20,393 bases of DNA from a virus: IMG/VR virus record IMGVR_UViG_3300007609_000115, positions 1-20,393 of that record; one strand, written 5' to 3'. The first letter of the stretch is position 1, and each line of letters begins with the position of its first letter. The notes beneath the pieces are model-generated. The model did not search any database. It saw nothing but the letters and a program-made list of their open reading frames with translations, and had not been told where the DNA came from. Below are positions 1 through 20,393 of the stretch, piece by piece. The translations under genes were made by a program, and so were the position numbers.

Positions 1-18
1 ATTGATATTAAATTATGA
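1..18 (+). CDS. Possible 3' end of an upstream gene (partial)
   Basis: Frame 1 reads five sense codons (I-D-I-K-L) and then a TGA at 16-18 that overlaps the ATG at 15-17 in an ATGA junction. The same junction type recurs at 4204 and 19042, so an upstream gene of the same operon probably ends here. Only five codons are visible, so nothing can be said about its product. Confidence 0.3.
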   Translation: MDIKL

Positions 19-1424
19 GTATAGCTAATCATGATGTTGTAAGAAAAGAATTAGATTCTGTTGGCTGCGGATTTTGTTTAGCTAAATGGACCCAAGTTAC
101 TATTCATCTTGGAACAGGAATGACACACTCTTGTCACCACCCGTCTCCTCATAAAATACCGATAAAGGAACTAAAACGTAACCCTTCAGCACTCCACAAC
201 ACTTCTTTTAAGAAACAGAAAAGAAGAGAAATGCTGGAAGGCAAGAGACCTGAAGAGTGTAACTACTGTTGGAATGTAGAAGATAACTCAGACTCTTTTT
301 CTGACAGAGTATTTAAATCAGCAGAACCTTGGTCACTAGATCAACTAGAAACTATTAAACAGACTCATTGGAGAAGAAACTTTAATCCTAGATATGTAGA
401 GGTTTCATTTTCCAACACGTGTAACTTTAAATGTGCATATTGCGGTCCTCAATATTCATCTAAGTGGGTAGAAGAGATAGAAAAACACGGAGGATATCCT
501 ACATCTTATAACTTCAATGATACAACAAATATGAAGGCATCTGGAACGATGCCATATAAACAAACTGAATATAATCCATACGTAGAAGCATTTTGGGAAT
601 GGTGGCCGGACCTATTTAAGGACCTTCACACATTTAGAATAACAGGAGGAGAACCTTTACTATCCAAAGATACATTCAGGGTATTAGAGTATATTCAACA
701 CAAATACGAAGATAATAGTAACTTATCTCTTTCTATCAACACTAATTTAGGAGTTCCTGATAAACTTATTGACAACTTTATTGAAATCGCTAAAGATTTA
801 TGTGAGAATGATAAAGTAAGGGAGTTAACATTATTTACCTCGATAGAAGCTCAAGGAAAGCAGGCCGAGTATACACGTTACGGTTTAGATGCAGATAAAT
901 TCTGGTTTAATATTGATAAAATACTAACTGCACTACCTAAGGTAACTATTAATATTATGGCTACTTTTAATGCTCTTTCGGTATTTACATATGACGATGT
1001 AATTGAAAAGACATTTGAATTAAAAAAGAAACACGCTAATGGACAAAGGTACTGGACTTCAGCTTTACAGCTAGATACATCGTACCTTAGGTGGCCTTCT
1101 CATCTATCTATTAAAATATTAGAACCAGAACACTTTAATTTAATTTTAGAACACGCTAAAAAAGCACTATATTACGGTATAAAAGAGTTTACTCACGGTA
1201 ACTACGGATTTTCAAATATCGAGATTCAAAAGATCAAAAGAATCTATGATTATGCAATTTCTGATTCACTGTTTGATGTAGATAAAAATAGAAAAGATTT
1301 TATTAAGTTTGTTGATGAATTAGATAAAAGGAGGGACACTAACTTTGTAGAGACTTTTCCTGAATTAAAAGATTTTTATGTTAAGTATAAAAAAAGGGTA
1401 TCCGTGGATCTTTTGGCCGAGTAG
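15..1424 (+). CDS. Radical SAM protein with N-terminal Cys/His-rich (twitch-type) region, copy 1
   Basis: A radical-SAM enzyme of 469 residues. The CxxxCxxC motif that binds the [4Fe-4S] cluster is C136, C140 and C143, followed by the SAM-binding GGEP at 211-214 and a later INTN strand near 241. Before the core lies a second cysteine/histidine set: C18, C21, C40-H41-H42 and C82-x2-C85-W86. This resembles proteins named twitch-domain-containing radical SAM and probably binds another metal cluster. It is clearly paralogous to the protein at 1962-3587, sharing the SCHHP...HKIP, HNT, RPxECxYCW and SDRVxKS blocks. The reaction and substrate are unknown. The family includes enzymes acting on peptides and on small molecules. 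The ATG at 15 overlaps the probable upstream stop. No Shine-Dalgarno sequence is visible, and translation is probably coupled. The 3' end overlaps the next gene by 47 bases. Confidence 0.9.
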   Translation: MSIANHDVVRKELDSVGCGFCLAKWTQVTIHLGTGMTHSCHHPSPHKIPIKELKRNPSALHNTSFKKQKRREMLEGKRPEECNYCWNVEDNSDSFSDRVFKSAEPWSLDQLETIKQTHWRRNFNPRYVEVSFSNTCNFKCAYCGPQYSSKWVEEIEKHGGYPTSYNFNDTTNMKASGTMPYKQTEYNPYVEAFWEWWPDLFKDLHTFRITGGEPLLSKDTFRVLEYIQHKYEDNSNLSLSINTNLGVPDKLIDNFIEIAKDLCENDKVRELTLFTSIEAQGKQAEYTRYGLDADKFWFNIDKILTALPKVTINIMATFNALSVFTYDDVIEKTFELKKKHANGQRYWTSALQLDTSYLRWPSHLSIKILEPEHFNLILEHAKKALYYGIKEFTHGNYGFSNIEIQKIKRIYDYAISDSLFDVDKNRKDFIKFVDELDKRRDTNFVETFPELKDFYVKYKKRVSVDLLAE

Positions 1425-1962
1425 TATTTGTGACACTCTCCCAGTTAATCCAGGTAATAAATTACTGTCAGGAGATAAATACTTTAAACTAACGTTAGAG
1501 TATATATTGAGAGATAGTAGTGATGAACAGAAGACTTTATTTACTATAGTTCCAAGATTTACCGGCTTAGATCTATATAAGAACAAATCAGTTCTTACTG
1601 TAACTTGTGAGGATAAAGCCGATTATATAGATATAAATTATATCGGTATAGAAAATGAAAAAACAAAATTAGTTATAGAACATTCACCGGAAGTGTTTTT
1701 TAACTTATTTATTAATGATAATCTAATTCATAGTTTAGATTTAAAAGGAAGATCATTTGGTAAATCAGATAGTCCTCACTTAATATTAGGGGCTGGTAAT
1801 TTTCCTAAAAATGAATTTAATTTAAACTATTTAGATGTAGATTTTTTAGAGTTCAAATTAGAAGACGAAACCCAAGTAGTTTCTCATCATAAATTTGAAG
1901 AGTTTATTTTTGATAAATCAGTTGATTTAACTGATAACTGTAATTTTATACATAAGTTATAA
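1378..1962 (+). CDS. Hypothetical protein, possibly LamG/concanavalin-like beta-sandwich
   Basis: A protein of 194 residues that begins inside the 3' end of the preceding radical-SAM gene. The ATG at 1378 is the only methionine in the protein, so the start is the best available one. It has an N-terminal PWIFWPSS segment and then many alternating hydrophobic/polar strands. Phrases such as LVIEHSPEVFFNLFINDNLIHSLDL, seen in shorter pieces, plus DVDFLEFKL look like the strands of a LamG/concanavalin-type jelly roll, which would bind carbohydrate. The end reads VDLTDNCNFIHKL. No catalytic motif is visible, so the fold is inferred from pattern only. It sits between two paralogous radical-SAM genes and could be their substrate, partner or a sugar-binding virion component. 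An alternative is production as a fusion with the upstream protein by slippage on the A-run at 1389-1395. Confidence 0.7.
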   Translation: MLSIKKGYPWIFWPSSICDTLPVNPGNKLLSGDKYFKLTLEYILRDSSDEQKTLFTIVPRFTGLDLYKNKSVLTVTCEDKADYIDINYIGIENEKTKLVIEHSPEVFFNLFINDNLIHSLDLKGRSFGKSDSPHLILGAGNFPKNEFNLNYLDVDFLEFKLEDETQVVSHHKFEEFIFDKSVDLTDNCNFIHKL

Positions 1963-3587
1963 TGGGAGTTTACGCTAAAAGGGACGACGAATCATTTCAG
2001 GAATATAGAGATAGGGTTATAAATACGTTATCAAAATCGTTTTGCGGTGCTAAATGGTACAACGCTACTATTTGGCTAGGAAACGGAACAACGGCATCAT
2101 GCCACCACCCACCTGCACATAAAATACCATTAGAAGAAGTAGCTAAATCGTATAAAGCTATACATAATACTACGTACAAGAAAGCCGTACGTAAAGAAAT
2201 GATGGAAGGTATTCGTCCAAAAGAATGCGAATATTGTTGGAAGATAGAAGATTTAGGAGAAGATAAAGTATCTGATAGAGTATACAAATCAGTAATATAT
2301 ACAGATGAAGAACTAAGGGAGGCAAAAGAAGAATTAGGATATACTGAAGATGTAGATCTTAAAACATTAGAGATTGCTTTTGATCCTAACTGTAACTTTG
2401 GTTGTTCATACTGTAATGCTTCCTTTTCAACAACCTGGCAAAAAGATATTAAAAAGTTTGGAGCTTATCAAAACTTAGTATCTGATGGAGCAGGTGCTTT
2501 TCAACACGACGGTGCCCACGCTATGCCATATGGTCGTAAGAACGAAGGTAATCCATATGTAGAAGCATTCTGGAAATGGTGGGAGGCAGAATTGCAACAC
2601 TCATTACGAGAGTTAAGAGTGACAGGAGGAGAACCTTCTATGTCACCAGACTTCTGGAAGTTAATGGACTGGTGGAAAAGTCATCCGGAATGTGAAGTAG
2701 CTTTTGCTGTCAATTCAAATTTAGGACAAAAGAAGCAGCTCCTTGACGCATTAATAGAATCATCACATAGTTTTAAAGATTTCAGTATTTATACTTCCTG
2801 TGAGGCAACCGGACTACAAGCCGAATATATTCGATATGGATTAGACTGGGATCTATGGTTAAAAAACATGTACAGAGTCAATAGAGAAGGTAATCTAAAG
2901 TCTGTAAATGTAATGTTAACCATTAATGCCCTATGTCTATTTTCAATCACAGAGTTTATGGATGAGATGTTAAAGCTCAAAGCAGAGTTTGGACATCATG
3001 CAGCCGTTATGTCATTTAATATTTTACGCTTTCCTTCTTTTCAGTCTATAGTAACATTACCTCCAGAAATCAGATTAGAAAGAGCTGCCCATATTCAAGA
3101 ATGGTTAGATAATAACTACAACGGAGGAGTTAACGGATTAATGGACTTTGAACGAGACGGGATTGTTAGAATGATAGAGTATATAAAACAAGTTGACACT
3201 GGACATGCTCATACATCATCATTAGAATCTAGAGTAAGAGATTTTAAATCATTCTACTCTCAATACGACGTTAGACGTAATCTAGATTTTCATAAAGCTT
3301 TCCCAATGTTAAAAGAATGGTGGGAAAGTATTCCTGAAACTAATCTTGGTAAATTACAAGAACTTGTAGATGGAGATGATGCTAAATCAAACAGATATGT
3401 TCATGAGGTTCTTAAAAAAGCCAAAGAAGAAGGATGGGTTCTTAACCCTCAATGGGCTAACCCAGGATCTCAGGAGTATATAGAACCTGATGATCAGCAG
3501 CAAGACGATATGATTGACCTTATTGATCAATTAAAAAAAGAACAAGACACTAAGTTTGTGGGTGGATTAGCTAAAAAGAAGAAATAG
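1962..3587 (+). CDS. Radical SAM protein with N-terminal Cys/His-rich (twitch-type) region, copy 2
   Basis: A radical-SAM enzyme of 541 residues, paralogous to the protein at 15-1424. The cluster-binding CxxxCxxC is C144, C148 and C151 (DPNCNFGCSYC), with GGEP at 222-225. The N-terminal Cys/His set is C28, C47-H48-H49 and C89-x2-C92-W93. It lacks the counterpart of C21 in copy 1, where the order is FCGAKW rather than CGFCLAKW. It extends about 70 residues beyond copy 1 at the C terminus with an acidic/Gln-rich linker and a Lys-rich end (GGLAKKKK), which could contact nucleic acid or a partner. The start ATG overlaps the upstream stop (TAATG) and its stop TAG overlaps the next GTG start, so translation is likely coupled on both sides. 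The substrate is unknown. Confidence 0.9.
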   Translation: MGVYAKRDDESFQEYRDRVINTLSKSFCGAKWYNATIWLGNGTTASCHHPPAHKIPLEEVAKSYKAIHNTTYKKAVRKEMMEGIRPKECEYCWKIEDLGEDKVSDRVYKSVIYTDEELREAKEELGYTEDVDLKTLEIAFDPNCNFGCSYCNASFSTTWQKDIKKFGAYQNLVSDGAGAFQHDGAHAMPYGRKNEGNPYVEAFWKWWEAELQHSLRELRVTGGEPSMSPDFWKLMDWWKSHPECEVAFAVNSNLGQKKQLLDALIESSHSFKDFSIYTSCEATGLQAEYIRYGLDWDLWLKNMYRVNREGNLKSVNVMLTINALCLFSITEFMDEMLKLKAEFGHHAAVMSFNILRFPSFQSIVTLPPEIRLERAAHIQEWLDNNYNGGVNGLMDFERDGIVRMIEYIKQVDTGHAHTSSLESRVRDFKSFYSQYDVRRNLDFHKAFPMLKEWWESIPETNLGKLQELVDGDDAKSNRYVHEVLKKAKEEGWVLNPQWANPGSQEYIEPDDQQQDDMIDLIDQLKKEQDTKFVGGLAKKKK

Positions 3588-4207
3588 TGAATATATTAGT
3601 TACAGGCGGTAATGGTAGGTTAGCTCAAAAGCTTAGATCCACTCCGGATTTTAACTTTTTAACCCCTAGCAGAGAGGAATTAAATTTATCCTCATACAGT
3701 TCTATTGATAAATTTTTAGAAGAAAAAACTGTAGATGGACTCATTTTAAATGCTTTTCACTATCTTCCTAGTGATATTGATTTGAATAATATTAAATCTT
3801 TTAATGAAGGATTTATAGAATCTACTAAAGTTAATCTTTTATCAACTTTATACCTTTATTTAAAATTAAACCATAACCTTAAGTTTATTGTATTTCTTTC
3901 CACAGGACTAGACCCTATACATGAAAGTAACCATATCTTTTATCGCAACAGTAAAGCTGCCGTAAGTGACTTATTAGAACGGCTATGGTATAGAGACCAA
4001 AAAATTAAAACTATATTCGTTCACCCAGGGCATATGCACGATGATTATACGTTTAGTATGAGTGCACTTCAACTTGTTAATCTTGTAAGTAAAATTGACG
4101 AGTTAAAAAATCTTACAACTTACGGAATATTTGATAAAGATAAAATGCAAGCTCAAGAACTCGAAAGTATTAAATCTTACCATACTGTAAATGTAGTAGA
4201 TCTATGA
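3587..4207 (+). CDS. Short-chain dehydrogenase/epimerase-like (SDR) protein
   Basis: A short NAD(P)-dependent SDR-type protein of 206 residues. The N terminus NILVTGGNGRLA is the Rossmann dinucleotide-binding turn (TGxxGxx, with Ala where the third Gly usually is). A Ser-Tyr-Lys catalytic set is visible as S105 (FLSTG), Y119 and K123 (FYRNSK, the YxxxK motif), followed by a HPGH segment like the usual PG turn. It is shorter than most SDRs (about 250 residues or more), so the substrate-binding C-terminal part is reduced. It could oxidise, reduce or epimerise a sugar or a radical-SAM product. The start is GTG at 3587, sharing its first base with the upstream TAG stop, and the end overlaps the next ATG (ATGA). 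Its place between radical-SAM genes suggests it acts in the same pathway. Confidence 0.85.
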   Translation: MNILVTGGNGRLAQKLRSTPDFNFLTPSREELNLSSYSSIDKFLEEKTVDGLILNAFHYLPSDIDLNNIKSFNEGFIESTKVNLLSTLYLYLKLNHNLKFIVFLSTGLDPIHESNHIFYRNSKAAVSDLLERLWYRDQKIKTIFVHPGHMHDDYTFSMSALQLVNLVSKIDELKNLTTYGIFDKDKMQAQELESIKSYHTVNVVDL

Positions 4208-5550
4208 AAATAAAACCAAAAGATGGAAATAAGACATTTTGTATGGCTCCTTGGTCACACACCTACGTATCACCGCAAGGTGAAAGAAGGCTATGCTGTG
4301 CATCAAGAGAAAAATCTACATGGATAAAACAGTACATAGATGTAGAGAATGACGATAAAAACGACGAGTTTGTACCAACTACTCTAGAAGAACACTGGAA
4401 TAGTGAGTATATGAAAGATATACGAAAACGACTAATGGCCGGTGAAGAAATAGAACAATGTCAGGTATGTAACTATAAGCTACTAAATATCTACACATAT
4501 AGAGGGTACTTTAACGACCAGCTCTTTCCCGATAAAATAGACGAGGCATTTGAAAAGACTAGAGATGATGGATATACTGAAATGAAACCTATTTCGTATG
4601 ATTACCGTATATCTAATTTATGTAATTTTAAATGTAGAATGTGCGGTGATCAACTATCATCTTCATGGGAAGCAGAAAGACGCAAGATGAATAACTGGTC
4701 TCCAGAAGGTGACCCTTGGATGACCCCAGAAAATAGGAGTAAATTACATAGTTTTACTAGAGATGTACTAGAAAAGGAACTTTGGGATGCAGTATACGAA
4801 GAAAGGATTGAAGAGATCTACTGGGTCGGAGGAGAACCGTTAATGTTCCAAATACATTGGGATATTATGGAATATCTTGTTAAGACAGGTCAATCTAAGA
4901 ATGTAGTAGTTAGATATAATACTAATTTGTCTAGAGTCGAATGGAAAGGAATTAAACTATACGACTTACTTAAACACTTTAAACATGTTAACATCTCAGC
5001 ATCCATTGATGGTACTGGTAACATAGTTGAGTATGTTAGAGACGGTATTAAGTGGGACAGATGGTTACAGAATTTTAAGGACGGATTATTCTTAAAGGAT
5101 CTGTATGGAGATGCCGGTATAGTTCTGGACGTAACAATTACATCCCCAGGTTTATTTGCAATGAAAGATTTATTTGATTTAGCATTAGAATTAGATGTAA
5201 TTTCGTATATTAAAAAGACATTTGAATTTGATCCTACCATTGTAATGTCACCTTCTATGATACCTAGAGGTATATTAGAACCATTAGTAGATGATATTAT
5301 TGCTTATATGGAACCTAAAGTTACTGATAAAACTAAAATTTACATAGAAGCTTTAGAGGATGTAAAAAATGTAAAAACCTTCCAAGAAAAATATTCTGAT
5401 TGGAAAGAAGGACTAGAGAAAGGAAAGACTAACCTAATGAGGATAGATAAGTTTAGAAGATGTGAATATAACATAGATCAAATATTTAAAGAAAACAACC
5501 AACACCTTTATGAATGGTGGCAAACAATCCCATATGAAACTAATATTTAG
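4204..5550 (+). CDS. Twitch-domain radical SAM protein, second type, copy 1
   Basis: A radical-SAM enzyme of 448 residues of a second subtype. The N terminus is TFCMAPWSHTYVSPQG and then RRLCC, with C13, C31-C32 and a C86-x2-C89 pair (QCQVC) forming a probable auxiliary cluster site. The radical-SAM core follows with C140, C144 and C147 (NLCNFKCRMC), GGEP at 209-212 and SIDG near 277. These features fit the family usually named twitch-domain-containing radical SAM protein, which is frequent in marine phage genomes. It pairs with the protein at 7221-8579, which has the same FCxAPW...CC layout. It lacks the CHHP motif of the two upstream copies. The reaction is unknown. The start overlaps the SDR stop (ATGA) and the stop overlaps the next gene by 17 bases. 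Confidence 0.92.
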   Translation: MKIKPKDGNKTFCMAPWSHTYVSPQGERRLCCASREKSTWIKQYIDVENDDKNDEFVPTTLEEHWNSEYMKDIRKRLMAGEEIEQCQVCNYKLLNIYTYRGYFNDQLFPDKIDEAFEKTRDDGYTEMKPISYDYRISNLCNFKCRMCGDQLSSSWEAERRKMNNWSPEGDPWMTPENRSKLHSFTRDVLEKELWDAVYEERIEEIYWVGGEPLMFQIHWDIMEYLVKTGQSKNVVVRYNTNLSRVEWKGIKLYDLLKHFKHVNISASIDGTGNIVEYVRDGIKWDRWLQNFKDGLFLKDLYGDAGIVLDVTITSPGLFAMKDLFDLALELDVISYIKKTFEFDPTIVMSPSMIPRGILEPLVDDIIAYMEPKVTDKTKIYIEALEDVKNVKTFQEKYSDWKEGLEKGKTNLMRIDKFRRCEYNIDQIFKENNQHLYEWWQTIPYETNI

Positions 5551-6550
5551 AAACATTAACAATGAGACGATAGACGTCGACTGCACAATTTATGAAAGCC
5601 CTCTAACAGCTAAATGGGGCAACTTATTAACAGGAGTTATACAAAACGATTTTATAGCATATGTAAAAACGTTTTCGTTAGTGGGTAATTTATCTCAAAA
5701 TAGACCGCCTGAACAAATTATAAGGGAGTTAGTAGAGGGCGTTAGATTACTAAAAAAAGCATCTTGGTATCCGGAGTACAATAAGATAAACGAAGATTTT
5801 GAATCTCTACTTACTACATATGATCAGGATATGCTTAATAGCTTACACCACCACTTTGATCAATTACAAGGACAGATTTGGAACCCTACACATTTTTTAG
5901 CTAAAGCAACCGGTGAAGAAAGATTTGCAATTTCTAAGTTAAATTTGTGTTGTCATGAATTAGAGGCATACCACGACTCTAAAGAGAAAAAAGAAAACGG
6001 ATATCCACATAGTACGTACTTCTACTATTCAATCTCAGGAACACCCGTTTTTGAGGAAATCACTTTAGAAGAAAAAATGCTATTTAGTAGGAATGTAGGA
6101 AACGGTATGATTTATTTACATTATGCTCAAACCGGTAAAACTTGGTATGAAGCTTACTGTGATGGAGATGAAATAGTACCTACAGAGAATATTACTGAAC
6201 ATAGAACAATCACTGGTGAATTCTCTTGCCACATTGGTAAACCTTTTGACTTTATTGTAGATGAGGGATTTGAAAATTATATTAAAGCCAGAGGAAGAGA
6301 CCCAGAAGATCCCTCTTTAGCTATTGGCTACTGTCCTATTGGTCAAATTAATAGCGTTAATGGGATACCTATTGAAGACTACGAAGCTTGTCAAAAAGTA
6401 CTAGAAGAGTACGACGACTTTTATGCCATAGAGTATAACGGATTACGTAAAGAGTACGATTATAGAGCTAATGACAAAACTTATTACGATAAGATTGTAG
6501 GCGTTATGGATACCTGGGCTGTAAATGATGATTTAAAAAACTTTGCATAA
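5534..6550 (+). CDS. Conserved-looking phage protein of unknown function in radical-SAM cassette
   Basis: I do not recognise a defined family. From the ATG at 5534 the protein has 338 residues and begins MKLIFRN, a typical first strand. An in-frame ATG at 5510 would add eight residues (MNGGKQSH) deeper in the upstream gene and looks less likely. Notable blocks are LHHHFDQL at about 104-111, KLNLCCHELEAYHD at about 135-148, a YLHYAQTGKTWYEAY segment and a cysteine-containing LAIGYCPIGQI near 263-273. The histidine/cysteine/acidic clusters could bind metal, but this is inference. It looks like a soluble protein with no signal peptide or membrane segment. Tight overlap with the upstream radical-SAM gene and a one-base overlap with the oxygenase gene downstream put it in the same pathway or complex. 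Confidence 0.8.
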   Translation: MKLIFRNINNETIDVDCTIYESPLTAKWGNLLTGVIQNDFIAYVKTFSLVGNLSQNRPPEQIIRELVEGVRLLKKASWYPEYNKINEDFESLLTTYDQDMLNSLHHHFDQLQGQIWNPTHFLAKATGEERFAISKLNLCCHELEAYHDSKEKKENGYPHSTYFYYSISGTPVFEEITLEEKMLFSRNVGNGMIYLHYAQTGKTWYEAYCDGDEIVPTENITEHRTITGEFSCHIGKPFDFIVDEGFENYIKARGRDPEDPSLAIGYCPIGQINSVNGIPIEDYEACQKVLEEYDDFYAIEYNGLRKEYDYRANDKTYYDKIVGVMDTWAVNDDLKNFA

Positions 6551-7221
6551 TGTCTAAATTAACTATTAACCCTAAATGTATTGACTACTGGTTTCCAATA
6601 TGGGAGGTAGAATCTTCAGATACACCATATTCAAGAGAATTTTTTGAATTAGAAGGACTTTGGATAGATAATTCACTGGTAGACGGAAAGCATACCTTTT
6701 ACGGAAAAGAGAGAAAAGAATTTAATACGAGCTTTAGTCAAGATTTTAATGAATGGTTAGATAATTTTAAAAGGGAAAATAATATTCTTGAATTTATCGG
6801 TAATACACTGGAGCTTCCTGAAAACGAACACCATTTTTACAGGCTATTTCCAATTGAAAACTCCGGTGTTAGGCCTCTAGATTTTATTAAGAATAAGTGT
6901 AGTACGCACTATAGAATTATGAGAGACGACCCCGGGTATAAAATGGCTAACCATTTTGACAATAGAGCTGTACTCGGTAACTTTTTTATCAATCTAACAG
7001 ATAACTCTGGGGTATCTACTCACTTTATAAATACATTTACTACCGGGAATCAAAACGTAATAGATCCAGCTACTAACATACATTATATAGGCCCAACAGA
7101 TAAAAACAAAGGTATTTTCTTTCTAAACACCTCAGATACATATCACGGTATTTCTAATCCTACAGAAAACTCACGGTTCATAATGAATATTTTAGTTTTC
7201 TTTCCTGAATTAACATATTAA
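6550..7221 (+). CDS. 2-oxoglutarate/Fe(II)-dependent oxygenase-like protein
   Basis: A protein of 223 residues with the signature of the cupin-fold 2OG-Fe(II) oxygenases. The iron-binding triad is visible as H135-F-D137 (NHFDN) and H199 (TYHGI), and R209 (SRFIMNI), ten residues after the distal histidine, is well placed to bind the 2-oxoglutarate carboxylate. Strands between these (VLGNFFINL, GIFFLN, MNILVFF) fit the double-stranded beta-helix. Enzymes of this class hydroxylate or desaturate peptides, nucleobases, lipids or small molecules using O2. The substrate is not evident. The start ATG overlaps the upstream TAA by one base (TAATG) and the stop overlaps the next start the same way. Having an O2-dependent oxygenase next to oxygen-sensitive radical-SAM enzymes in one transcription unit is notable and suggests a multi-step modification pathway. 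Confidence 0.75.
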   Translation: MSKLTINPKCIDYWFPIWEVESSDTPYSREFFELEGLWIDNSLVDGKHTFYGKERKEFNTSFSQDFNEWLDNFKRENNILEFIGNTLELPENEHHFYRLFPIENSGVRPLDFIKNKCSTHYRIMRDDPGYKMANHFDNRAVLGNFFINLTDNSGVSTHFINTFTTGNQNVIDPATNIHYIGPTDKNKGIFFLNTSDTYHGISNPTENSRFIMNILVFFPELTY

Positions 7222-8579
7222 TGAAAAGTATTATAGATAAAGATAATAAGTCGTTTTGTTTAGCACCTTGGGTTTCAACACATGTATGGCCTAACGGGAA
7301 TACCTATCCATGCTGCATGTGGGATGTTCATGATCCGATCGGGAATGTTAATGATGTACCGTTAGGAGATATTTGGAACAACAGTAAAATGAAAGATGCT
7401 AGGGTAAAGATGATGAAAGGTGAAAAAATTTCATCTTGTAATCGCTGCTACGAATTAGAAAATTCAGGGTATACCTCATATAGAGACTACTTTGCTGAAC
7501 AGCATAGTGATAAGATGGACTATGTTGAAAAAACAGATCCTGATGGTAATTTAGATTTTATGAATCTACATTTATGGGATTTAAGGCTTTCCAATTACTG
7601 TAATTTTAAGTGTAGATCTTGCGGCTTCCTTTTAAGTTCATCGTGGCTTTCTGATCAAAATGCTCTATCAGATAACTTAGTTATGAAAGAGTTAGATACG
7701 GGTTACTATAATAGTCCTAAACATAAGAAAGCGGTTATGTCTGTAAATAGTAACGTAGATTTTCTTTCCATGATGGAAGAACATTATAACTGTGTAGATG
7801 AGATTTACTTTGCTGGTGGAGAACCTCTATTAATGCCGGAGCACTATACTATTCTAGATAAATTATTAGAAATAGGACGTACTGACGTATTAATCAGATA
7901 TTCAACTAATTTCTCTAAATTTAAATACGGCAAAAAGCATGTATTTGATTACTGGAGACACTTTAAAAATCTCAAAGTTTGGATCAGTGTTGACGGTGTG
8001 GGTAAGGTAGGTGAGTATATAAGACATGGGTATAATGATGAGAATTTTGAAAAACAAATTAGAGAATACGAAAACTCAGGTATAGAGGCCAAAGACTGCG
8101 GTTACAGTGTAACGTACAGTGCGTATAACTACTTACATTTATTTGACTTAGTAGTTGATTTTATTAAGAGAGGTTTTGTAGATTATAAAGAGCAGAAACG
8201 CAACGGCCGTCTTATATTTTTTAACCCAGTATCGTACCCAGTTTACTTAGATTCCAGATTTATTCCTAATCAAATGAAATTACAGTTTTATAATAGACTA
8301 ATTAATTTTGATCAAGAAATGAGAGATTTAGGAGCAGAAGAATTTTTCATTAACCATATGATGGAACATTTAACAACAGTTTACACTAGAAGCTTAGAAG
8401 AAGATTTTCATAAAATCAATATGATGAAACTTAAGGGTGTTACTGAGGAGTTAGATAAATTAAGAAAAGAGAAATTCGAAGATGTATTTCCATATGTCAA
8501 AACTGTAGATGAGTTTTTAATTAACAAAGAGACTATTAACGTACCGACGTATAACGGATATAATCCGAAAGTACTATAA
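7221..8579 (+). CDS. Twitch-domain radical SAM protein, second type, copy 2
   Basis: A radical-SAM enzyme of 452 residues and the best match in this window to the twitch-domain radical-SAM family. The N terminus SFCLAPWVSTHVWPNG...YPCCMWD gives C13 and C31-C32. It is followed by the familiar LGDIWN, MKGE and C73-x2-C76 (SSCNRC) segments. The core has C127, C131 and C134 (NYCNFKCRSC), GGEP at 199-202 and SVDG near 255. It shares its layout with the protein at 4204-5550 and is more distant from the two CHHP-type copies at the start of the window. The auxiliary cysteines probably hold a second iron-sulfur cluster used to bind or oxidise substrate. The start and stop both overlap neighbours (TAATG), which points to coupled translation. 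The substrate is unknown. Confidence 0.93.
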   Translation: MKSIIDKDNKSFCLAPWVSTHVWPNGNTYPCCMWDVHDPIGNVNDVPLGDIWNNSKMKDARVKMMKGEKISSCNRCYELENSGYTSYRDYFAEQHSDKMDYVEKTDPDGNLDFMNLHLWDLRLSNYCNFKCRSCGFLLSSSWLSDQNALSDNLVMKELDTGYYNSPKHKKAVMSVNSNVDFLSMMEEHYNCVDEIYFAGGEPLLMPEHYTILDKLLEIGRTDVLIRYSTNFSKFKYGKKHVFDYWRHFKNLKVWISVDGVGKVGEYIRHGYNDENFEKQIREYENSGIEAKDCGYSVTYSAYNYLHLFDLVVDFIKRGFVDYKEQKRNGRLIFFNPVSYPVYLDSRFIPNQMKLQFYNRLINFDQEMRDLGAEEFFINHMMEHLTTVYTRSLEEDFHKINMMKLKGVTEELDKLRKEKFEDVFPYVKTVDEFLINKETINVPTYNGYNPKVL

Positions 8580-9235
8580 TGGAAAAACGTAGGTGTGTTT
8601 TTATTTCCGGCCTATTAATTCATTTATCAGACAACATTCTACCGTTCCTCAATAGAGAAACAGACTTATACGTTCATACTTATAATTTACCGGAGAATAA
8701 AAGGTGGATAACTAAGTTAAACCGTTACAAGAAGTACGTTAAAAATTTATACTTAGTAGAAGAATACGTAAGATTTGAAAAAAAACTTCATTCGTATTTC
8801 TACTCTACTTATAAAGCTGTTAATTTAATTCAAAATATTAAACAGTACGATTCTATAGTCAAGTTTAAACCTAACGTAGAAGGAGATATAACTTACGTAG
8901 GAGATTTACCTTACTATTTTAAAAAAGGCTACCTGCAAAGTAGACCACTACTGAAAGGGGTAACTAAAGAAGACTGTATTTATGGTTCAATATACTATCA
9001 GACGATGGATGAAAGAATATTTTCTGGTTATCCGCTTGCCTTTTCTAAAATGTTTCATATATTAGAAGAAGAGTTTGTCCAAACAATGATAGACCTTGAT
9101 AAGAACTGTATGGGAAAATACGGTGAAGATTATGAAGGAAGTATTTTTTGGAAGCTTTGGACAGAGTTAAAAGAAGTTAAACAAATTCAAGATATAGATT
9201 TAAAAATCCCAAATAGTAAACCATGGCAACAGTAA
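8579..9235 (+). CDS. Hypothetical protein, distant glycosyltransferase-like candidate
   Basis: A protein of 218 residues without a clear family assignment. Its layout recalls a group of viral and bacterial surface-polysaccharide proteins. It has an N-terminal strand (CVFISGLLIHLSDN), then DLYVHTYN, then a helix plus YSTYKAVNLI, then YDSIVKFKPNV (where that group has YDxVIRxRxD), then a later IYGSIYYQTMDERIFSGY block. In this protein the usual aspartate of the RxD segment is replaced (KPNVE), so activity is uncertain. No signal peptide or membrane segment is seen. It begins at a TAATG overlap with the radical-SAM gene and its end overlaps the next gene by 13 bases. If the glycosyltransferase reading is right, the cassette may modify sugars. 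If not, it is simply unknown. Confidence 0.65.
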   Translation: MEKRRCVFISGLLIHLSDNILPFLNRETDLYVHTYNLPENKRWITKLNRYKKYVKNLYLVEEYVRFEKKLHSYFYSTYKAVNLIQNIKQYDSIVKFKPNVEGDITYVGDLPYYFKKGYLQSRPLLKGVTKEDCIYGSIYYQTMDERIFSGYPLAFSKMFHILEEEFVQTMIDLDKNCMGKYGEDYEGSIFWKLWTELKEVKQIQDIDLKIPNSKPWQQ

Positions 9236-9570
9236 AGGACTTAAAAGCTAAAAGTAAAGCAGAGCAAGAAAATTTTGTAGATACTGATCAATTTGAACAG
9301 TTAGAGCAAGAATTAAACCAACCTAAAGGAATTAAATTAACTGAAACTGAACTTCGTTTACTTACAGATTTAAATAGAAAAAAGGAACTGGTATCTAGAG
9401 AAGTTTCCTTTTTGGCACAACAACAACTTACTATAGATTACCGTCAAGAGGAGGCAGAAAAGTTGTATCGAGATAATCTTGAACTTGAAAAGCAACTAGG
9501 AAATCAGCTTACAGAGAAATACGGTAACGGAACTATAGACATCGAAAACGGAATATTCGTTCCTGCATAG
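9223..9570 (+). CDS. Small charged coiled-coil protein of unknown function
   Basis: A protein of 115 residues, very rich in Glu, Gln, Lys and Leu, with long heptad-like stretches (roughly residues 15-100) that predict a coiled coil. It ends in a short non-helical tail containing IDIENGIFVPA. It has no cysteine and no recognisable catalytic motif. The ATG lies 13 bases inside the preceding gene. It is the last gene before a 112-base gap and the tail sheath gene, so it sits on the border between the enzyme cassette and the tail module. It may be a small virion or assembly protein, or a partner or substrate of the cassette. Neither can be decided from the sequence. Confidence 0.75.
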   Translation: MATVKDLKAKSKAEQENFVDTDQFEQLEQELNQPKGIKLTETELRLLTDLNRKKELVSREVSFLAQQQLTIDYRQEEAEKLYRDNLELEKQLGNQLTEKYGNGTIDIENGIFVPA

Positions 9571-9590
9571 ATTTTAGGTTTATTTTTTAC

Positions 9591-9601
9591 TATTTATATA
9601 T
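9591..9601 (+). promoter_or_regulatory. TATTTATA motif, candidate promoter element (distal copy before sheath)
   Basis: TATTTATATAT lies 20 bases after the stop of the small coiled-coil gene and about 90 bases before the sheath start. It shares TATTTATA with motifs at 9648, 11445 and 13038. It is less similar after the first eight bases and farther from a start codon, so it is the weaker of the two copies in this gap. Confidence 0.3.
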
Positions 9602-9647
9602 GTAGGTTGGGCATACTCACATCTCAACTGTTTCGATTTTCGAACTA

Positions 9648-9658
9648 TATTTATAATA
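9648..9658 (+). promoter_or_regulatory. TATTTATAATA motif, candidate promoter of tail sheath gene
   Basis: The 11-mer TATTTATAATA ends 24 bases before the sheath ATG and is repeated identically before the tube gene at 11445. It contains TATAAT, a typical -10 hexamer. Read on the other strand it contains TATAAATA, the T4 late promoter core, but in the wrong direction for this gene. A small hairpin (TTCGA...TCGAA, 9632-9644) lies just upstream. The consistent placement before tail genes supports a regulatory role. The exact role is inferred. Confidence 0.5.
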
Positions 9659-9682
9659 GAAATAAAATAAACACTACCTAAC

Positions 9683-11431
9683 ATGGCAGAAACTATTATC
9701 TCCCCAGGTGTATTTGCACGAGAAAATGATATTTCATTTGTAGCACCGGCACCAGTAGCCGTAGGGGCAGCAATCATTGGACCTACAGTAAAAGGACCTG
9801 TAGAGATCCCAACAGTGGTTACCTCTTATAGTGACTATTCAAGAAAATTTGGAGTTACTTTTACTAGCGGTTCAACTACACAAGAGTTTTTAACATCACT
9901 TGCGGTAAAGAGCTATTTTGATCAAGGAGGAGAAAGTGTATTAGTTTCTCGAGTTGTATCAGGATCTGCCGGATGGACAAGAGCAACAAGCACCACTATT
10001 GCTTCTGTAACCGCTAGTATAGAAGACGCATTTACTATTAGCACTATTGGTAAAGGAGCTCTTTACAATAACAACTCAGGTTCAACTTATAACTCAGGCG
10101 GGTTAGAAGAGAATTCTGACGGTTCATTAAAATCAGGTTCAGCTGATAATATTCGTTGGGAAATTTCTAACGTAGATTCCGCTAACGGTACATTTACTTT
10201 AGCAGTAAGAGCTGGTGATGACAGTATATCAAACAAAGTAATACTTGAAACATTTAATAACCTTTCTTTAGATCCTAACTCACCTAACTACATTGCTGCA
10301 GTTATTGGTGATCAAAGATCAGAGTTATCAAGTGGACAAGTAATTATCACAGGAGACTATACAAACAAATCTAACTATATCTACGTTTCGGCTGTTTCTA
10401 AACCCACTCTTAACTACTTAGGTAATGATGGAGTAACTATTCAATCAGGATCTGACGGAGTAGGGTATGACAATTATCTTCCAGTAGCACAGTCTGGATC
10501 TTTCCATTCAGCAGCAGGGACTATTGCACCAGCAGGAGCTAAATACTTTGGAGATATCGACACTAACGTACAGGGTCTTATCGGATCTGATTATGATAAC
10601 GTAATTAGCTTATTAGGAAATAAAGACGAATTCCAATTTAATATTATTTCTGCGCCAGGTTTAACTAAACAACATACCAGTACTCAAGTAGATAATATTA
10701 TCTCTCTTGCAGAATTTAGAGGAGACTGTATTGCAGTAGTAGATTTAGTAGATTACGACGTAGTAACTATTAGTACAGTAACTGCACAAGCTGCTTTATT
10801 AAACAGCTCTTATGCAGCTTCTTACTGGCCATACTTACAGACTCAATCTGCCACAGGTAAACTTGCATGGGTACCAGCATCAGTTGTTATCCCAGGAGTA
10901 TATGCATTCACAGATGGAGCTTCAGCACCATGGTTTGCACCTGCAGGACTTGTAAGAGGAGGCTTAACAGGAGTAATTCAAGCTAAGAAAAAACTTTCTA
11001 GATCAGAAAGGGACACTCTCTACACAGGTAAGGTTAATCCAATTGCTACATTCCCTGGAACAGGTATTTCAGTATTTGGTCAGAAAACTTTACAAACTAA
11101 AGCTTCTGCATTAGATAGAGTAAATGTTAGACGTCTACTTATTGAACTTAAAAAGTTCTTAGGAGATCAAGCACAGAATTTAGTATTCGAACAAAATACT
11201 ATTGCAACTCGTAACCGTTTCTTAGCAGCTGTTAATCCTTACCTAGAGTCAGTAGTACAGCAGCAAGGTTTATATGCTTATAGAGTAGTAATGGACGATA
11301 CTAACAATACTGCAGATGTAGTTGATAGAAATCAATTAGTAGGTCAGATCTTTATCCAGCCAGCTAAAACTGCAGAGTTCATCGTATTAGACTTCGTAGT
11401 AGAACCTACTGGAGCAACTTTTACGGCATAA
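9683..11431 (+). CDS. Contractile tail sheath protein (gp18-like)
   Basis: A tail sheath protein of 582 residues that forms the outer contractile cylinder around the tail tube. The N terminus (SPGVFARENDISF...) and the GAAIIGPTVKGPVEIPTVV block are typical of phage sheath proteins, as is the following YFDQGG...VLVSRVVSG segment. The C-terminal domain, with VNVRRLLIELKK, FEQNTIATRNRF and a closing GQIFIQPAKTAEFIVLDF, is the conserved sheath core that makes the interlocking strands. The middle (roughly residues 100-300) is Gly/Ser-rich and variable, as expected for the exposed domains. The length is slightly below T4 gp18 (about 660). It has its own leader with a TATTTATAATA motif and no Shine-Dalgarno sequence. 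The start is the ATG of a Met-Ala beginning, shared with the other tail genes. Confidence 0.95.
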   Translation: MAETIISPGVFARENDISFVAPAPVAVGAAIIGPTVKGPVEIPTVVTSYSDYSRKFGVTFTSGSTTQEFLTSLAVKSYFDQGGESVLVSRVVSGSAGWTRATSTTIASVTASIEDAFTISTIGKGALYNNNSGSTYNSGGLEENSDGSLKSGSADNIRWEISNVDSANGTFTLAVRAGDDSISNKVILETFNNLSLDPNSPNYIAAVIGDQRSELSSGQVIITGDYTNKSNYIYVSAVSKPTLNYLGNDGVTIQSGSDGVGYDNYLPVAQSGSFHSAAGTIAPAGAKYFGDIDTNVQGLIGSDYDNVISLLGNKDEFQFNIISAPGLTKQHTSTQVDNIISLAEFRGDCIAVVDLVDYDVVTISTVTAQAALLNSSYAASYWPYLQTQSATGKLAWVPASVVIPGVYAFTDGASAPWFAPAGLVRGGLTGVIQAKKKLSRSERDTLYTGKVNPIATFPGTGISVFGQKTLQTKASALDRVNVRRLLIELKKFLGDQAQNLVFEQNTIATRNRFLAAVNPYLESVVQQQGLYAYRVVMDDTNNTADVVDRNQLVGQIFIQPAKTAEFIVLDFVVEPTGATFTA

Positions 11432-11444
11432 TTTAAAAATAGAA

Positions 11445-11455
11445 TATTTATAATA
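11445..11455 (+). promoter_or_regulatory. TATTTATAATA motif, candidate promoter of tail tube gene
   Basis: An identical copy of the 11-mer before the sheath gene, ending 16 bases upstream of the tube ATG in a 40-base intergenic gap. A separate promoter here would allow the abundant tube protein to be made independently of the sheath. The function is inferred from repetition and position. Confidence 0.5.
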
Positions 11456-11471
11456 AAGCAATCAATATAGC

Positions 11472-11957
11472 ATGGCAACATTAGACCCGAACGAAATAAT
11501 GTTTAGAGCTTTCGAGCCTAAAGTACAGAACAGATTTGTAATGTACGTTGACGGTATTCCATCATTCATGGTAAGAAACGTAACAGCTCCAAGCTTCACC
11601 GATGAGTCTATCAAGTTAGATCACATCAACTCTTATAGAAAAGTACGTGGAAAAAGAGAATGGCAGGATATGGATATGACACTTTACGATCCAGTTACTC
11701 CATCAGGTGCTCAAGCAGTAATGGAATGGGGTCGCCTTTCATACGAATCTGTAACCGGTAGAGCTGGATATTCAGATTACTATAAGAAAGACCTTACTCT
11801 TAACGTACTAGGGCCTATTGGTGATATCGTATCAGAATGGATTATCAAAGGAGCATTTATTACTAATATGTCTCAAGGATCATTTGATTGGTCAAGCTCA
11901 GAAACAGTAGAGCTTTCAATCACAGTTGCAATGGATTATTGTATTCTTAACTATTAG
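11472..11957 (+). CDS. Tail tube protein (gp19-like)
   Basis: A protein of 161 residues that fits the T4 gp19 / phage tail tube family in length (gp19 is 163), order and sequence style. Recognisable segments are NRFVMYVDGIPSFMVRNVTAPSF near residues 19-41 (given in outline), the EWQDMDMTLYDP strand, GAQAVMEWGR, and a C-terminal ELSITVAMDYCIL strand. Subunits stack as hexameric rings to form the inner tube through which DNA passes. The gene directly follows the sheath, as gene 19 follows 18 in T4. It is followed by a strong rho-independent terminator. No Shine-Dalgarno sequence is seen and the leader carries a TATTTATAATA motif. Confidence 0.93.
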   Translation: MATLDPNEIMFRAFEPKVQNRFVMYVDGIPSFMVRNVTAPSFTDESIKLDHINSYRKVRGKREWQDMDMTLYDPVTPSGAQAVMEWGRLSYESVTGRAGYSDYYKKDLTLNVLGPIGDIVSEWIIKGAFITNMSQGSFDWSSSETVELSITVAMDYCILNY

Positions 11958-11980
11958 ACATATATTTCACCCATTTCAAG

Positions 11981-12010
11981 ACCCGGTTTTTACCGGGTTT
12001 TGTTGTTTTA
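11981..12010 (+). terminator. Rho-independent terminator after tail tube gene
   Basis: A perfect 7-bp stem ACCCGGT / ACCGGGT with a four-T loop (11981-11998) is followed by a T-rich run broken only by two G. It can extend outward with A-T pairs. It lies 23 bases after the tube stop and before the leader of the gp26-like gene, so it likely ends the sheath-tube transcript. It is the clearest terminator in the window. Confidence 0.88.
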
Positions 12011-12027
12011 TAAATTTATTTCTCGTA

Positions 12028-12038
12028 TATTTATTACA
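12028..12038 (+). promoter_or_regulatory. TATTTATT motif, candidate promoter of gp26-like gene
   Basis: TATTTATTACA follows the terminator and ends 25 bases before the gp26-like ATG. It differs from the sheath and tube motif at position 8 and after. A promoter is expected here because transcription should stop at the terminator just upstream. Confidence 0.4.
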
Positions 12039-12063
12039 GAACTGGTTTTAACAAATAAAATTT

Positions 12064-12789
12064 ATGGCCGAATTTAAATTACCTACCGAAACGGTAGAAC
12101 TTCCATCAAAAGGACTTTTATATCCTGCAGATTCACCTCTAGCATCAGGTACTATCGAAATGAAGTATATGACTGCCAAAGAGGAGGATATTCTTACGAA
12201 TACAAACTACATTCAAAAAGGAACTGTTATAGACAAACTGCTTCAATCCCTCATTGTTACTCCTGGAGTTAATTACAATGATTTCCTTATAGGAGATAAA
12301 AATGCCATTATGATTGCTGCTAGAATTTTGTCATACGGTAAAGACTACTCTTTTAAGTATGGAAATGAAGAAATTACAGTAGATTTATCTAAGTTAGAAA
12401 ATAAACCTGTAGATTATAGTATATTTTCTGATAGAAAAAACAACTTTAGGTTTACCTTGCCTAAGTCGGGTAACGACATTACTTTTAAGTTGCTTACACA
12501 TAATGATGAAAATACTATTCAACGAGAAATTGAAGGGTTAAAAAAATTAGATAAAGAAAGTAGTACAGATGTTACTACAAGACTTAAACATATTATTACT
12601 TCTGTAAACGGTCTTCATGAGCAAAAAGACATTAGAAACTTTGTAGATAATTTTTTATTAGCTGCTGATGCAAAAGCTTTAAGAGATTATATTTCTTCAA
12701 TTTCACCTGATGTAGAGTTAAAGTATTTAGTCGATGGAGAGGAGGCCATCGATATTCCCATTACTGTCGGGTTTTTTTGGCCTGAGTGA
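12064..12789 (+). CDS. T4 gp26-like baseplate/tail assembly protein
   Basis: A protein of 241 residues resembling the T4 gp26 baseplate protein family. It has an N-terminal ETVELPSKGLLYP, then IEMKYMTAKEEDIL, then a segment like VIDKLLQSLI. That PSKG-LYP / TAKEEDIL pairing is diagnostic. T4 gp26 is about 208 residues and is needed for the baseplate hub. In this window the gene sits just before the tape measure, the place where many phages keep tail-assembly chaperones. It ends with PITVGFFWPE and a stop, and the run TTTTTTT at 12772-12778 falls exactly in the overlap with the next reading frame. This suggests that part of its product is extended by frameshifting. No Shine-Dalgarno sequence is seen. 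The ATG at 12064 follows an A-rich leader. Confidence 0.85.
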   Translation: MAEFKLPTETVELPSKGLLYPADSPLASGTIEMKYMTAKEEDILTNTNYIQKGTVIDKLLQSLIVTPGVNYNDFLIGDKNAIMIAARILSYGKDYSFKYGNEEITVDLSKLENKPVDYSIFSDRKNNFRFTLPKSGNDITFKLLTHNDENTIQREIEGLKKLDKESSTDVTTRLKHIITSVNGLHEQKDIRNFVDNFLLAADAKALRDYISSISPDVELKYLVDGEEAIDIPITVGFFWPE

Positions 12790-13027
12790 GTTATATAGGG
12801 TACAGCTATTTACTCAAATTCATGAAATTATTTTTCATGGGAATGGAGGATATACCTGGAACGAAGTTTATAATATGCCTATATGGTTAAGAAAATTTAC
12901 TTTTCAAAAATTAAATGAATATTTCGAAAAGCAAAATAGTGCGGTAGAAAAGTCTACTAAATCAACTTCTAAAGTAAAAGGTCCGGACATCGACCCAACA
13001 TATAAAACAAAGGCTTCTAAAATTTAG
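12734..13027 (+). CDS. Overlapping downstream frame, probable C-terminal extension of tail assembly chaperone
   Basis: An open frame of 97 codons overlapping the gp26-like gene by 56 bases in the +1/-2 frame. If started at its own ATG (12734), the first 15 or so residues (MERRPSIFPLLSGFF) would come from sequence that encodes the conserved end of the gp26-like protein. After the overlap the protein looks real: LYRVQLFTQIHEIIFHGNG, then YTWNEVYNMPIWLRKF, then a Lys/Ser-rich tail. The short helix, Trp and MP-W pattern recalls the extensions of gpG-T type tail chaperones. The next in-frame ATG is internal (within YNMPIW). It may therefore be made mainly as a fusion through the T-run at 12772-12778. 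The alternative is an independent small protein, perhaps the counterpart of T4 gp51, whose gene also follows gene 26. Confidence 0.75.
   Translation: MERRPSIFPLLSGFFGLSELYRVQLFTQIHEIIFHGNGGYTWNEVYNMPIWLRKFTFQKLNEYFEKQNSAVEKSTKSTSKVKGPDIDPTYKTKASKI
12772..12778 (+). other. Candidate programmed frameshift site (T7 run)
   Basis: Frame 0 reads GGG-TTT-TTT-TGG. A shift of +1 or -2 on the seven T keeps Phe-TTT pairing and enters the downstream frame, giving ...GFFGLSELYR (+1) or one extra Phe (-2). The frame-0 stop follows 9 bases after the run. Position before the tape measure matches known tail chaperone frameshifts; a -2 shift is described for Mu and -1 for lambda. Confidence 0.55.
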
Positions 13028-13037
13028 GGGCCTTTCC

Positions 13038-13048
13038 TATTTATACTA
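13038..13048 (+). promoter_or_regulatory. TATTTATACTA motif, candidate promoter of tape measure gene
   Basis: TATTTATACTA ends 11 bases before the tape measure ATG in a 32-base gap. It matches the sheath and tube motif at 10 of 11 positions and contains TATACT, a -10-like hexamer. Being so close to the start codon, it would give a very short leader. Confidence 0.4.
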
Positions 13049-13059
13049 TATAGATTACC

Positions 13060-19588: not shown

Positions 19589-20393
19589 GTGTTTTATATA
19601 GTTGAACAGGAGAGTAAACTCTCTCAATTACAATCATTAGGAAAGTTAGGACTATACGTAGACGTTATATCGTCTAACAGTATGTATCATCCTAAACTTA
19701 CTTCTACGGTTGCGGTTTATATCCGCCCTGTAAAAGGAGACACTGGATATATTATTCCTATAAATCACGATGAAGGTATTAACGTTTTAAAAGAACGTGT
19801 ATATGAGGTTCTCTCATCAACCGATAAACTATATACATTAGATAAGAAAAACCTTCTCTACCACTTTAATTTACAGAAAGCCATAGACATATCTCTATTA
19901 TATTCTATGACTTATTACGATAAACTGGAATATTCAAGAGAAAATAACACTCTTAACTTCTTCTATAATAAATTTAACGGATTTAGTAATATTAACCAGT
20001 TAATTCCTATCAGTAAACTATATGAATCTTGTGAAAAAGTATACGAGAGTGTAAAAGATAAAATAGAGTTACAAATTCCTTATGGTTTTGACTTTTATAA
20101 TAATACCGCTACCAACGTTTCTTTCTTGATCGAACAGTCTGGACTTGGAATTCACTACGATGCGTTTAATAAAATGTTTAATCCTCGTAATTTAAGATTT
20201 AATACCGTCGATAACATAACATATTCATACTATAATTTATACAATGCTACTTCTAGACCTACTAATGCTTTCAACAGCATTAATTACGCTGCGATCCCTA
20301 AGACAGTCGAACATCGTAAATGCTTCAGACCACAGAACGACTATTTTGTTGAGCTTGACTTTGATGGCTACCACTTGCGTCTACTTTGTGATC
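19589..20393 (+). CDS. Divergent family A DNA polymerase, 5' part (runs off window)
   Basis: An open frame beginning with GTG at 19589. A TAA immediately upstream excludes an earlier start, and the next in-frame ATG is at 19682. It continues past the window, so 268 residues are visible. A weak AAAGG lies 11 bases before. Residues 53-60 (GYIIPINH) match the exonuclease-domain strand of DNA polymerase I proteins. FLIEQSGLGIHYD at 179-191 matches the start of the polymerase domain. NATSRPTNAFNSIN (219-232), then IPK, HRKCFRPQND and DFDGYHLRLL (257-266), line up with the TGRLSS...NLQNIP...R..F and motif A DYSQIELR blocks. D257 is the expected catalytic aspartate. Oddities: His262 replaces the usual steric-gate Glu, the exonuclease motif reads LYVDVIS instead of DxE, and only about 35 residues separate the thumb start from the TxR motif. 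The fingers, motifs B and C, are outside the window. Confidence 0.75.
   Translation, partial: MFYIVEQESKLSQLQSLGKLGLYVDVISSNSMYHPKLTSTVAVYIRPVKGDTGYIIPINHDEGINVLKERVYEVLSSTDKLYTLDKKNLLYHFNLQKAIDISLLYSMTYYDKLEYSRENNTLNFFYNKFNGFSNINQLIPISKLYESCEKVYESVKDKIELQIPYGFDFYNNTATNVSFLIEQSGLGIHYDAFNKMFNPRNLRFNTVDNITYSYYNLYNATSRPTNAFNSINYAAIPKTVEHRKCFRPQNDYFVELDFDGYHLRLLCD

Follow-up and report, generated by a model that had tools for sequence, protein, structure and literature searches.

The window analysed here is the complete IMG/VR record IMGVR_UViG_3300007609_000115 (20,393 bases), which starts 14 bases before the first gene of a block of nine plus-strand open reading frames (ORFs) at positions 15-9235. 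These ORFs encode four radical S-adenosylmethionine (SAM) proteins (rSAM1 to rSAM4), a short-chain dehydrogenase/reductase (SDR), a putative Fe(II)/2-oxoglutarate (2OG) oxygenase and the proteins w2, w6 and w9 (Table 1). As an original prediction made from the DNA letters had described, the genes lie on one strand, each neighbouring pair overlaps (by 1-47 bases), and phage tail genes adjoin them. The tail genes follow the block and encode sheath, tube, hub and wedge; a tenth gene, w10, overlaps the ninth as well. Given that the fragment begins so close to rSAM1, and that glycosyltransferase genes precede rSAM1 in related loci, the upstream part of the block is probably missing from the window. 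The locus is thus larger than the original prediction saw, with relatives adding GT7-lectin, GT2 and methyltransferase genes on that side. Relative to the homologous block of IMG/VR contig L173, all genes are under purifying selection that is strong across the block (dN/dS, the ratio of nonsynonymous to synonymous substitution rates, roughly 0.04-0.26), is strongest in rSAM2, rSAM3 and w6, and exceeds that on the sheath, although dS is near saturation and the ratios are rough. The block is therefore not a product of chance.

Table 1. Genes of the radical-SAM block and its right-hand border in the window.
Feature	Description	Position	Strand	Basis
rSAM1	N-twitch radical-SAM, 469 aa	15..1424	+	NF033640 341 bits; 7 conserved Cys; own subfamily clade, support 0.99
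w2	Stand-alone ConA/LamG-like (predicted lectin-type) domain protein, 194 aa	1378..1962	+	hhalign to LamG of GT7 fusions
rSAM2	N-twitch radical-SAM, 541 aa	1962..3587	+	NF033640 316 bits; subfamily clade support 1.0
SDR	Short SDR, RmlD-like, 206 aa, GTG start; optional part	3587..4207	+	RmlD_sub_bind E=5e-4 (residues 1-57 only, below family cut-off); dTDP-4-dehydrorhamnose reductase profile E=2e-4 (N-terminal part)
rSAM3	N-twitch radical-SAM, N-terminal SPASM/twitch match, 448 aa	4204..5550	+	NF033640 333 bits; SPASM E=4e-6; clade support 1.0
w6	rSAM3 partner, 346 aa	5510..6550	+	AlphaFold2 pLDDT 91; no PDB match; scan linkage to radical-SAM genes
Oxygenase	Putative Fe(II)/2OG oxygenase, 223 aa	6550..7221	+	Invariant HxD...H...R in 8 homologues
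rSAM4	N-twitch radical-SAM, 452 aa	7221..8579	+	NF033640 340 bits; SPASM E=2e-12; clade support 0.92
w9	Conserved 218-aa protein, not tied to radical-SAM genes	8579..9235	+	In radical-SAM-free stretches
w10	Small conserved gene closing the locus ahead of the sheath	9223..9570	+	Before sheath in most sheath-anchored contigs
Tail sheath	Tail sheath gene, fixed right-hand border	9683..11431	+	phrog_23 E=2e-73; 69% identity to Flavobacterium phage immuto

In profile hidden Markov model searches, all four radical-SAM proteins proved to be members of the NCBIfam family NF033640 (N_Twi_rSAM, twitch domain-containing radical SAM protein), scoring 316-341 bits against a curated cut-off of 170. The two motifs that had been predicted for them are in place, CxxxCxxC at residues 136, 144, 140 and 127 and GGEP at residues 211, 222, 209 and 199 of rSAM1 to rSAM4, respectively. 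Among the 201 relatives in our alignment the three radical-SAM cysteines are present in every sequence, and four N-terminal cysteines, the predicted ligands of one auxiliary cluster, in 198 or 199; CxxxCxxC is likewise kept in 218/218 homologues of at least 330 residues around the first scans. Relatives with disrupted clusters, an outcome that had been named as arguing against a joint pathway, were thus not what we found. The four enzymes fall into four separate, supported clades (0.92-1.0), each of which has both phage and bacterial members and usually contributes one member per locus, and they are accordingly predicted to be old, distinct specificities. Recent tandem duplication of the radical-SAM genes is ruled out by the age of these clades.

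When viral contigs were scanned with rSAM1, 80 loci and a total of 123 relatives were recovered; these loci, those found with rSAM4, those of phage K566 and the window itself make up a set of 65 non-redundant loci. At least two radical-SAM genes occur in 56 of the 65, with a maximum of eight; genes adjoining a radical-SAM gene overlap it or lie within 5 bases of it in 307 of 340 instances, and in each of the 96 adjacent radical-SAM pairs both genes lie on the same strand. Contig L173 carries eight of the nine genes in unchanged order (GT7-LamG, rSAM1, w2, rSAM2, SDR, rSAM3, w6, oxygenase, rSAM4, w10, sheath), so that the recurrence on which the original prediction had staked a joint pathway was found and the opposite outcome, non-co-occurrence, was not. 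The order of the oxygenase and rSAM4 genes is swapped in L172, L174 and L175, which also have one additional radical-SAM gene, and L007 and L176 lack the SDR at its usual place and have a different gene in the position of w9. No match was obtained when phage records were searched with the block at the DNA level, or when 50,697 phage records were searched with rSAM1 by tblastn, and the comparison is therefore made almost entirely with uncultivated contigs. Phage-like fragments with the same arrays are also filed under bacterial metagenome-assembled genomes (SAR11, Marinimicrobia, Flavobacteriales and others), i.e. as viral contigs binned into genomes (L094, L102, L103, L134, L138, L143, L161, L162 and L164).

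Sub-units within the block were sought with scans anchored on w2 and w6, that is, without selecting on radical SAM. Among 48 non-redundant cases of the w2 family, rSAM1 lies directly upstream in 45 of the 46 that have an upstream gene, and in 46 of the 48 the next gene downstream encodes a radical-SAM protein (rSAM2 in 43). The w6 family yielded 65 non-redundant cases, 56 of which have radical-SAM genes within the stretch, 37 of them directly upstream; a gene of the SGNH-esterase family takes the upstream position in 14 further cases. The block contains fixed sub-units: rSAM1-w2-rSAM2 and rSAM3-w6, both confirmed by these scans, and the oxygenase beside rSAM4. That all nine genes form one fixed unit is ruled out by the missing SDR in L007 and L176 and by the occurrence of w9 at radical-SAM-free loci. 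What had been described as a nine-gene coupled cassette holds in that the genes overlap and recur in order in L173; as a single unit it gives way to a modular series.

The partner proteins point towards sugars. A profile of w2 matched the LamG domain, itself identified by Pfam, at the C-terminus of the GT7 glycosyltransferases encoded upstream in relatives (hhalign probability 91%, E=9e-7), and by this profile likeness w2 is a free-standing relative of the GT7-fused domain and is predicted to be lectin-type. A second LamG-like family, f33, occupies its place in other lineages. The SDR assignment stands: the protein carries TGGNGxLA, its YxxxK is invariant, and among solved structures it comes closest to dTDP-4-dehydrorhamnose reductases (RmlD), whose N-terminal part it matched in a PDB profile comparison. 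At 206 residues the phage protein is much shorter than RmlD (about 290), and the match is confined to the NAD(P)-binding part.

For w6, a first AlphaFold2 run on 10 sequences gave a mean predicted local distance difference test score (pLDDT) of 67; the rerun used here, on 49 homologues, gave a confident model (pLDDT 91, predicted template modelling score 0.90). Foldseek found no match to this model in the PDB at E≤1e-3, and its nine matches in BFVD are all uncharacterised phage proteins. Residues H113, C148, H149 and E152 are invariant and could form a metal site. The family also occurs as a double-length protein (the 766-residue ORF of L240), and in stretches free of radical-SAM genes (L235, L241 and L247). 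The predicted HxD...H motif of the oxygenase was confirmed and extended, all 8 homologues, the most distant at 25% identity, keeping H135, D137, H199 and R209, but no library match exceeded threshold and no PDB profile matched (best, Asp_Arg_Hydrox at E=0.12 in two of the eight members); the 2OG assignment is thus motif-based and putative. A single-sequence scan with the oxygenase gave no confirmed loci and a profile scan gave two; the w6 and sheath scans supplied further homologues. No usable match came out of PDB profile searches run with w2, w6, w9, the oxygenase or the cargo families f1 and f3.

A further scan, anchored on the sheath gene, gave 37 non-redundant contigs in which the upstream sequence spans 3 kb or more. 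Radical-SAM genes are found in 17 of them, and the remainder carry different genes at that place. The close relative L258 has a single radical-SAM gene, short and distant, and otherwise holds genes for a sulfotransferase, CMP-sugar-type and NDP-sugar-type transferases and an aminotransferase. In the nearest isolate, Flavobacterium phage immuto (Immutovirus; sheath 69% identical), a tail fibre gene, a lysozyme gene and the sheath gene occur without any cassette. Because immuto has no cassette and other genes stand at the same place in the sheath-anchored contigs, the block is accessory cargo at a swap site.

Genes of glycan metabolism accompany this site in relatives. Upstream of rSAM1 they encode a tail fibre, a DUF6734 protein, a methyltransferase, GT2 and one or two GT7-LamG fusions, with further cargo including UDP-sugar dehydrogenase, epimerase, DegT aminotransferase, dTDP-sugar isomerase, carbamoyltransferase and SGNH esterase; array-free versions of the site carry sulfotransferase, CMP/NDP-sugar transferase and aminotransferase genes. 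The cultured but unrelated Vibrio phage K566 has distant N-twitch radical-SAM genes among GT8 and GT4-like genes. Most chromosomal homologues that we found belong to Bdellovibrionota, where glycosyltransferases are the commonest Pfam families adjoining NF033640 genes and epimerases are also present. Joint enrichment of radical SAM, RmlD and glycosyltransferases was reported for Tasman Sea phages by an independent virome study (PMC7150976). A flagellin link in bacteria (two neighbours), sought by sequence pattern, was not located and is not used here. Bdellovibrionota chromosomes also hold, amid housekeeping genes, seven or eight N-twitch radical-SAM genes in an array (L130, positions 3080-15076; L152, 9911-19693; L100), with no evident adjoining glycosyltransferase; the array of L152 is flanked by, for example, ATP synthase genes.

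Collectively, these data suggest that the cassette most likely edits sugars on the virus particle or on the host. Our preferred reading, to which we assign a probability of about 0.5, is that the block forms the variable part, devoted to sugar tailoring, of a glycan locus between the tail-fibre and tail-sheath genes of a marine myovirus, with a virion protein as the most likely target; such sets recur widely as an exchangeable component of what are probably loci for phage sugar decoration. The dedicated modification pathway of the original prediction is supported by the ordered recurrence in L173 and the conserved cluster cysteines. Of the candidates it had offered, the genomic evidence favours a glycan pathway beside the tail fibre, on a virion protein or a surface glycan, and lends no support to a host metabolite. 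In the mechanism we propose, an unusual sugar would be made or modified by soluble enzymes whose genes stand in series with the structural genes. A keto-sugar would be reduced by the RmlD-like SDR, C-H positions would be oxidised, epimerised, deoxygenated or joined through hydrogen abstraction by the four twitch radical-SAM enzymes, and the oxygenase would add a hydroxylation step. The lectin-type w2 may present the glycan to rSAM1 and rSAM2, w6 may act together with rSAM3, and the sugars would be transferred by the glycosyltransferases encoded upstream, a tail-fibre or baseplate protein being the likeliest acceptor. Several points weigh against this reading: the glycosyltransferase genes are seen in relatives and lie outside this window, many Bdellovibrionota homologues are solitary or in arrays without glycosyltransferases, and we found neither an NF033640 member of known reaction nor a target protein.

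A different target is the host surface, whose O-antigen or capsule sugars the enzymes might alter in infected cells so as to keep other phages from superinfecting them. The site is rich in sugar-nucleotide genes, and host-surface editing is the role proposed for glycosyltransferases in the host-recognition islands of pelagimyophages; these islands also hold radical-SAM cassettes (PMC7029224). The cassette genes, by comparison, are in line with structural genes, and we saw no flippase, polymerase, undecaprenyl-linked or other membrane enzyme. Surface-polysaccharide rebuilding pathways need membrane carriers, flippases and ligases, and known seroconversion operons depend on membrane proteins. 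By a crude hydropathy count, which limits the weight of this test, none of the nine cassette proteins has a predicted membrane segment, and so no membrane-embedded flippase or transferase of the O-antigen seroconversion kind is among them; around radical-SAM genes in related loci only 19 of 804 proteins have one, compared with 53 of 154 mechanically called Bdellovibrionota chromosome ORFs. A soluble pathway acting on proteins or sugar nucleotides therefore fits better, if indirectly, than surface-polysaccharide rebuilding, and we consider host-surface editing unlikely.

Direct modification of tail-protein residues (crosslinks or epimers) without sugars, in the manner of maturases of ribosomally synthesised and post-translationally modified peptides, would also suit a cassette that adjoins tail genes; SPASM/twitch enzymes often have peptide substrates, and w2 or w6 could serve as the recognition protein. 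All nine genes overlap, however, leaving no free ORF inside the block for a short precursor peptide beside a radical-SAM gene, and the w2 domain is shared with a glycosyltransferase while the neighbours are sugar enzymes, which together make this explanation quite improbable. Least in keeping with the locus is a role in auxiliary metabolism or iron-sulfur handling for the host cell, unlinked to glycans. A marine T4-like genome with 12 radical-SAM genes does also have iron-sulfur assembly genes (PMC5332604), yet the block has a fixed place beside tail fibre and sheath genes and lectin and RmlD-like partners, and other sugar genes replace it at the same site, so that we give this role very little credence. 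Returning to sugar tailoring, a more specific version, which we put forward tentatively and regard as somewhat doubtful, is that marine phages decorate their tail fibres via a new radical-SAM sugar pathway, in which a lectin-like carrier, w2, would hand a glycan between two radical enzymes, the new-fold w6 would act with a third, and modules would be swapped to vary the decoration, with predatory Bdellovibrionota holding cellular relatives.

Comparison with known systems places the block among previously noted gene sets. All four proteins lie far over the NF033640 cut-off; the family name gives no substrate, and what differs here is that four separate subfamilies stand side by side. Radical-SAM cassettes together with glycosyltransferases beside tail fibres have been reported, without function, in the host-recognition islands of marine myoviruses (PMC7029224). 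That island lies between VrlC and gp14, whereas our block borders the tail sheath and has Immutovirus as its nearest isolate; the passages of that account consulted here, unlike the present analysis, give no gene order, sub-units or lectin link. A variable region with tail fibres and glycosyltransferases in the myovirus structural module, as expected of such an island, is seen in our relatives, its upstream half lying outside the fragment. The 12 radical-SAM genes of TARA_ERS488813_N000010, the T4-like phage mentioned above, resemble the block in that several such genes occur within one phage, were likewise reported without function, and were set in an iron-sulfur metabolism context there, not as a glycan locus (PMC5332604). 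Within the literature searched, the ordered units, the lectin link, the sheath-side swap site, the pairing of rSAM3 with w6, whose fold is unmatched, and the division into four subfamilies are new. Radical-SAM genes in marine viromes are often tallied as unexplained auxiliary metabolic genes; fixed units in tail-fibre-adjacent glycan loci give them a testable role and predict an unusual sugar on virions or infected cells. A further yield of the analysis is a large collection of uncharacterised radical-SAM subfamilies whose partners are defined, and the cultured Vibrio phages K566 and K567 carry a related cluster that is usable for experiments.

Late-promoter-like sites (TATAAATA) were not above chance (78 found, 91.5 expected), and we make no late-promoter claim. 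The w9 gene is present just before w10 and the sheath in stretches without radical-SAM genes (e.g. L259, L263 and L268), and w9 is weakly similar to the tandem f40 family (profile comparison, 90%). Runs of similar proteins of 230-290 residues (f40, f20 and f180-f182) replace long radical-SAM arrays in L040, L051, L056 and L076. At the right end of the window, directly after the baseplate genes, an open ORF (19589-20392) that is 66-78% conserved in relatives terminates in ELDFDGYHLRLLCD, which resembles motif A of family A DNA polymerase.

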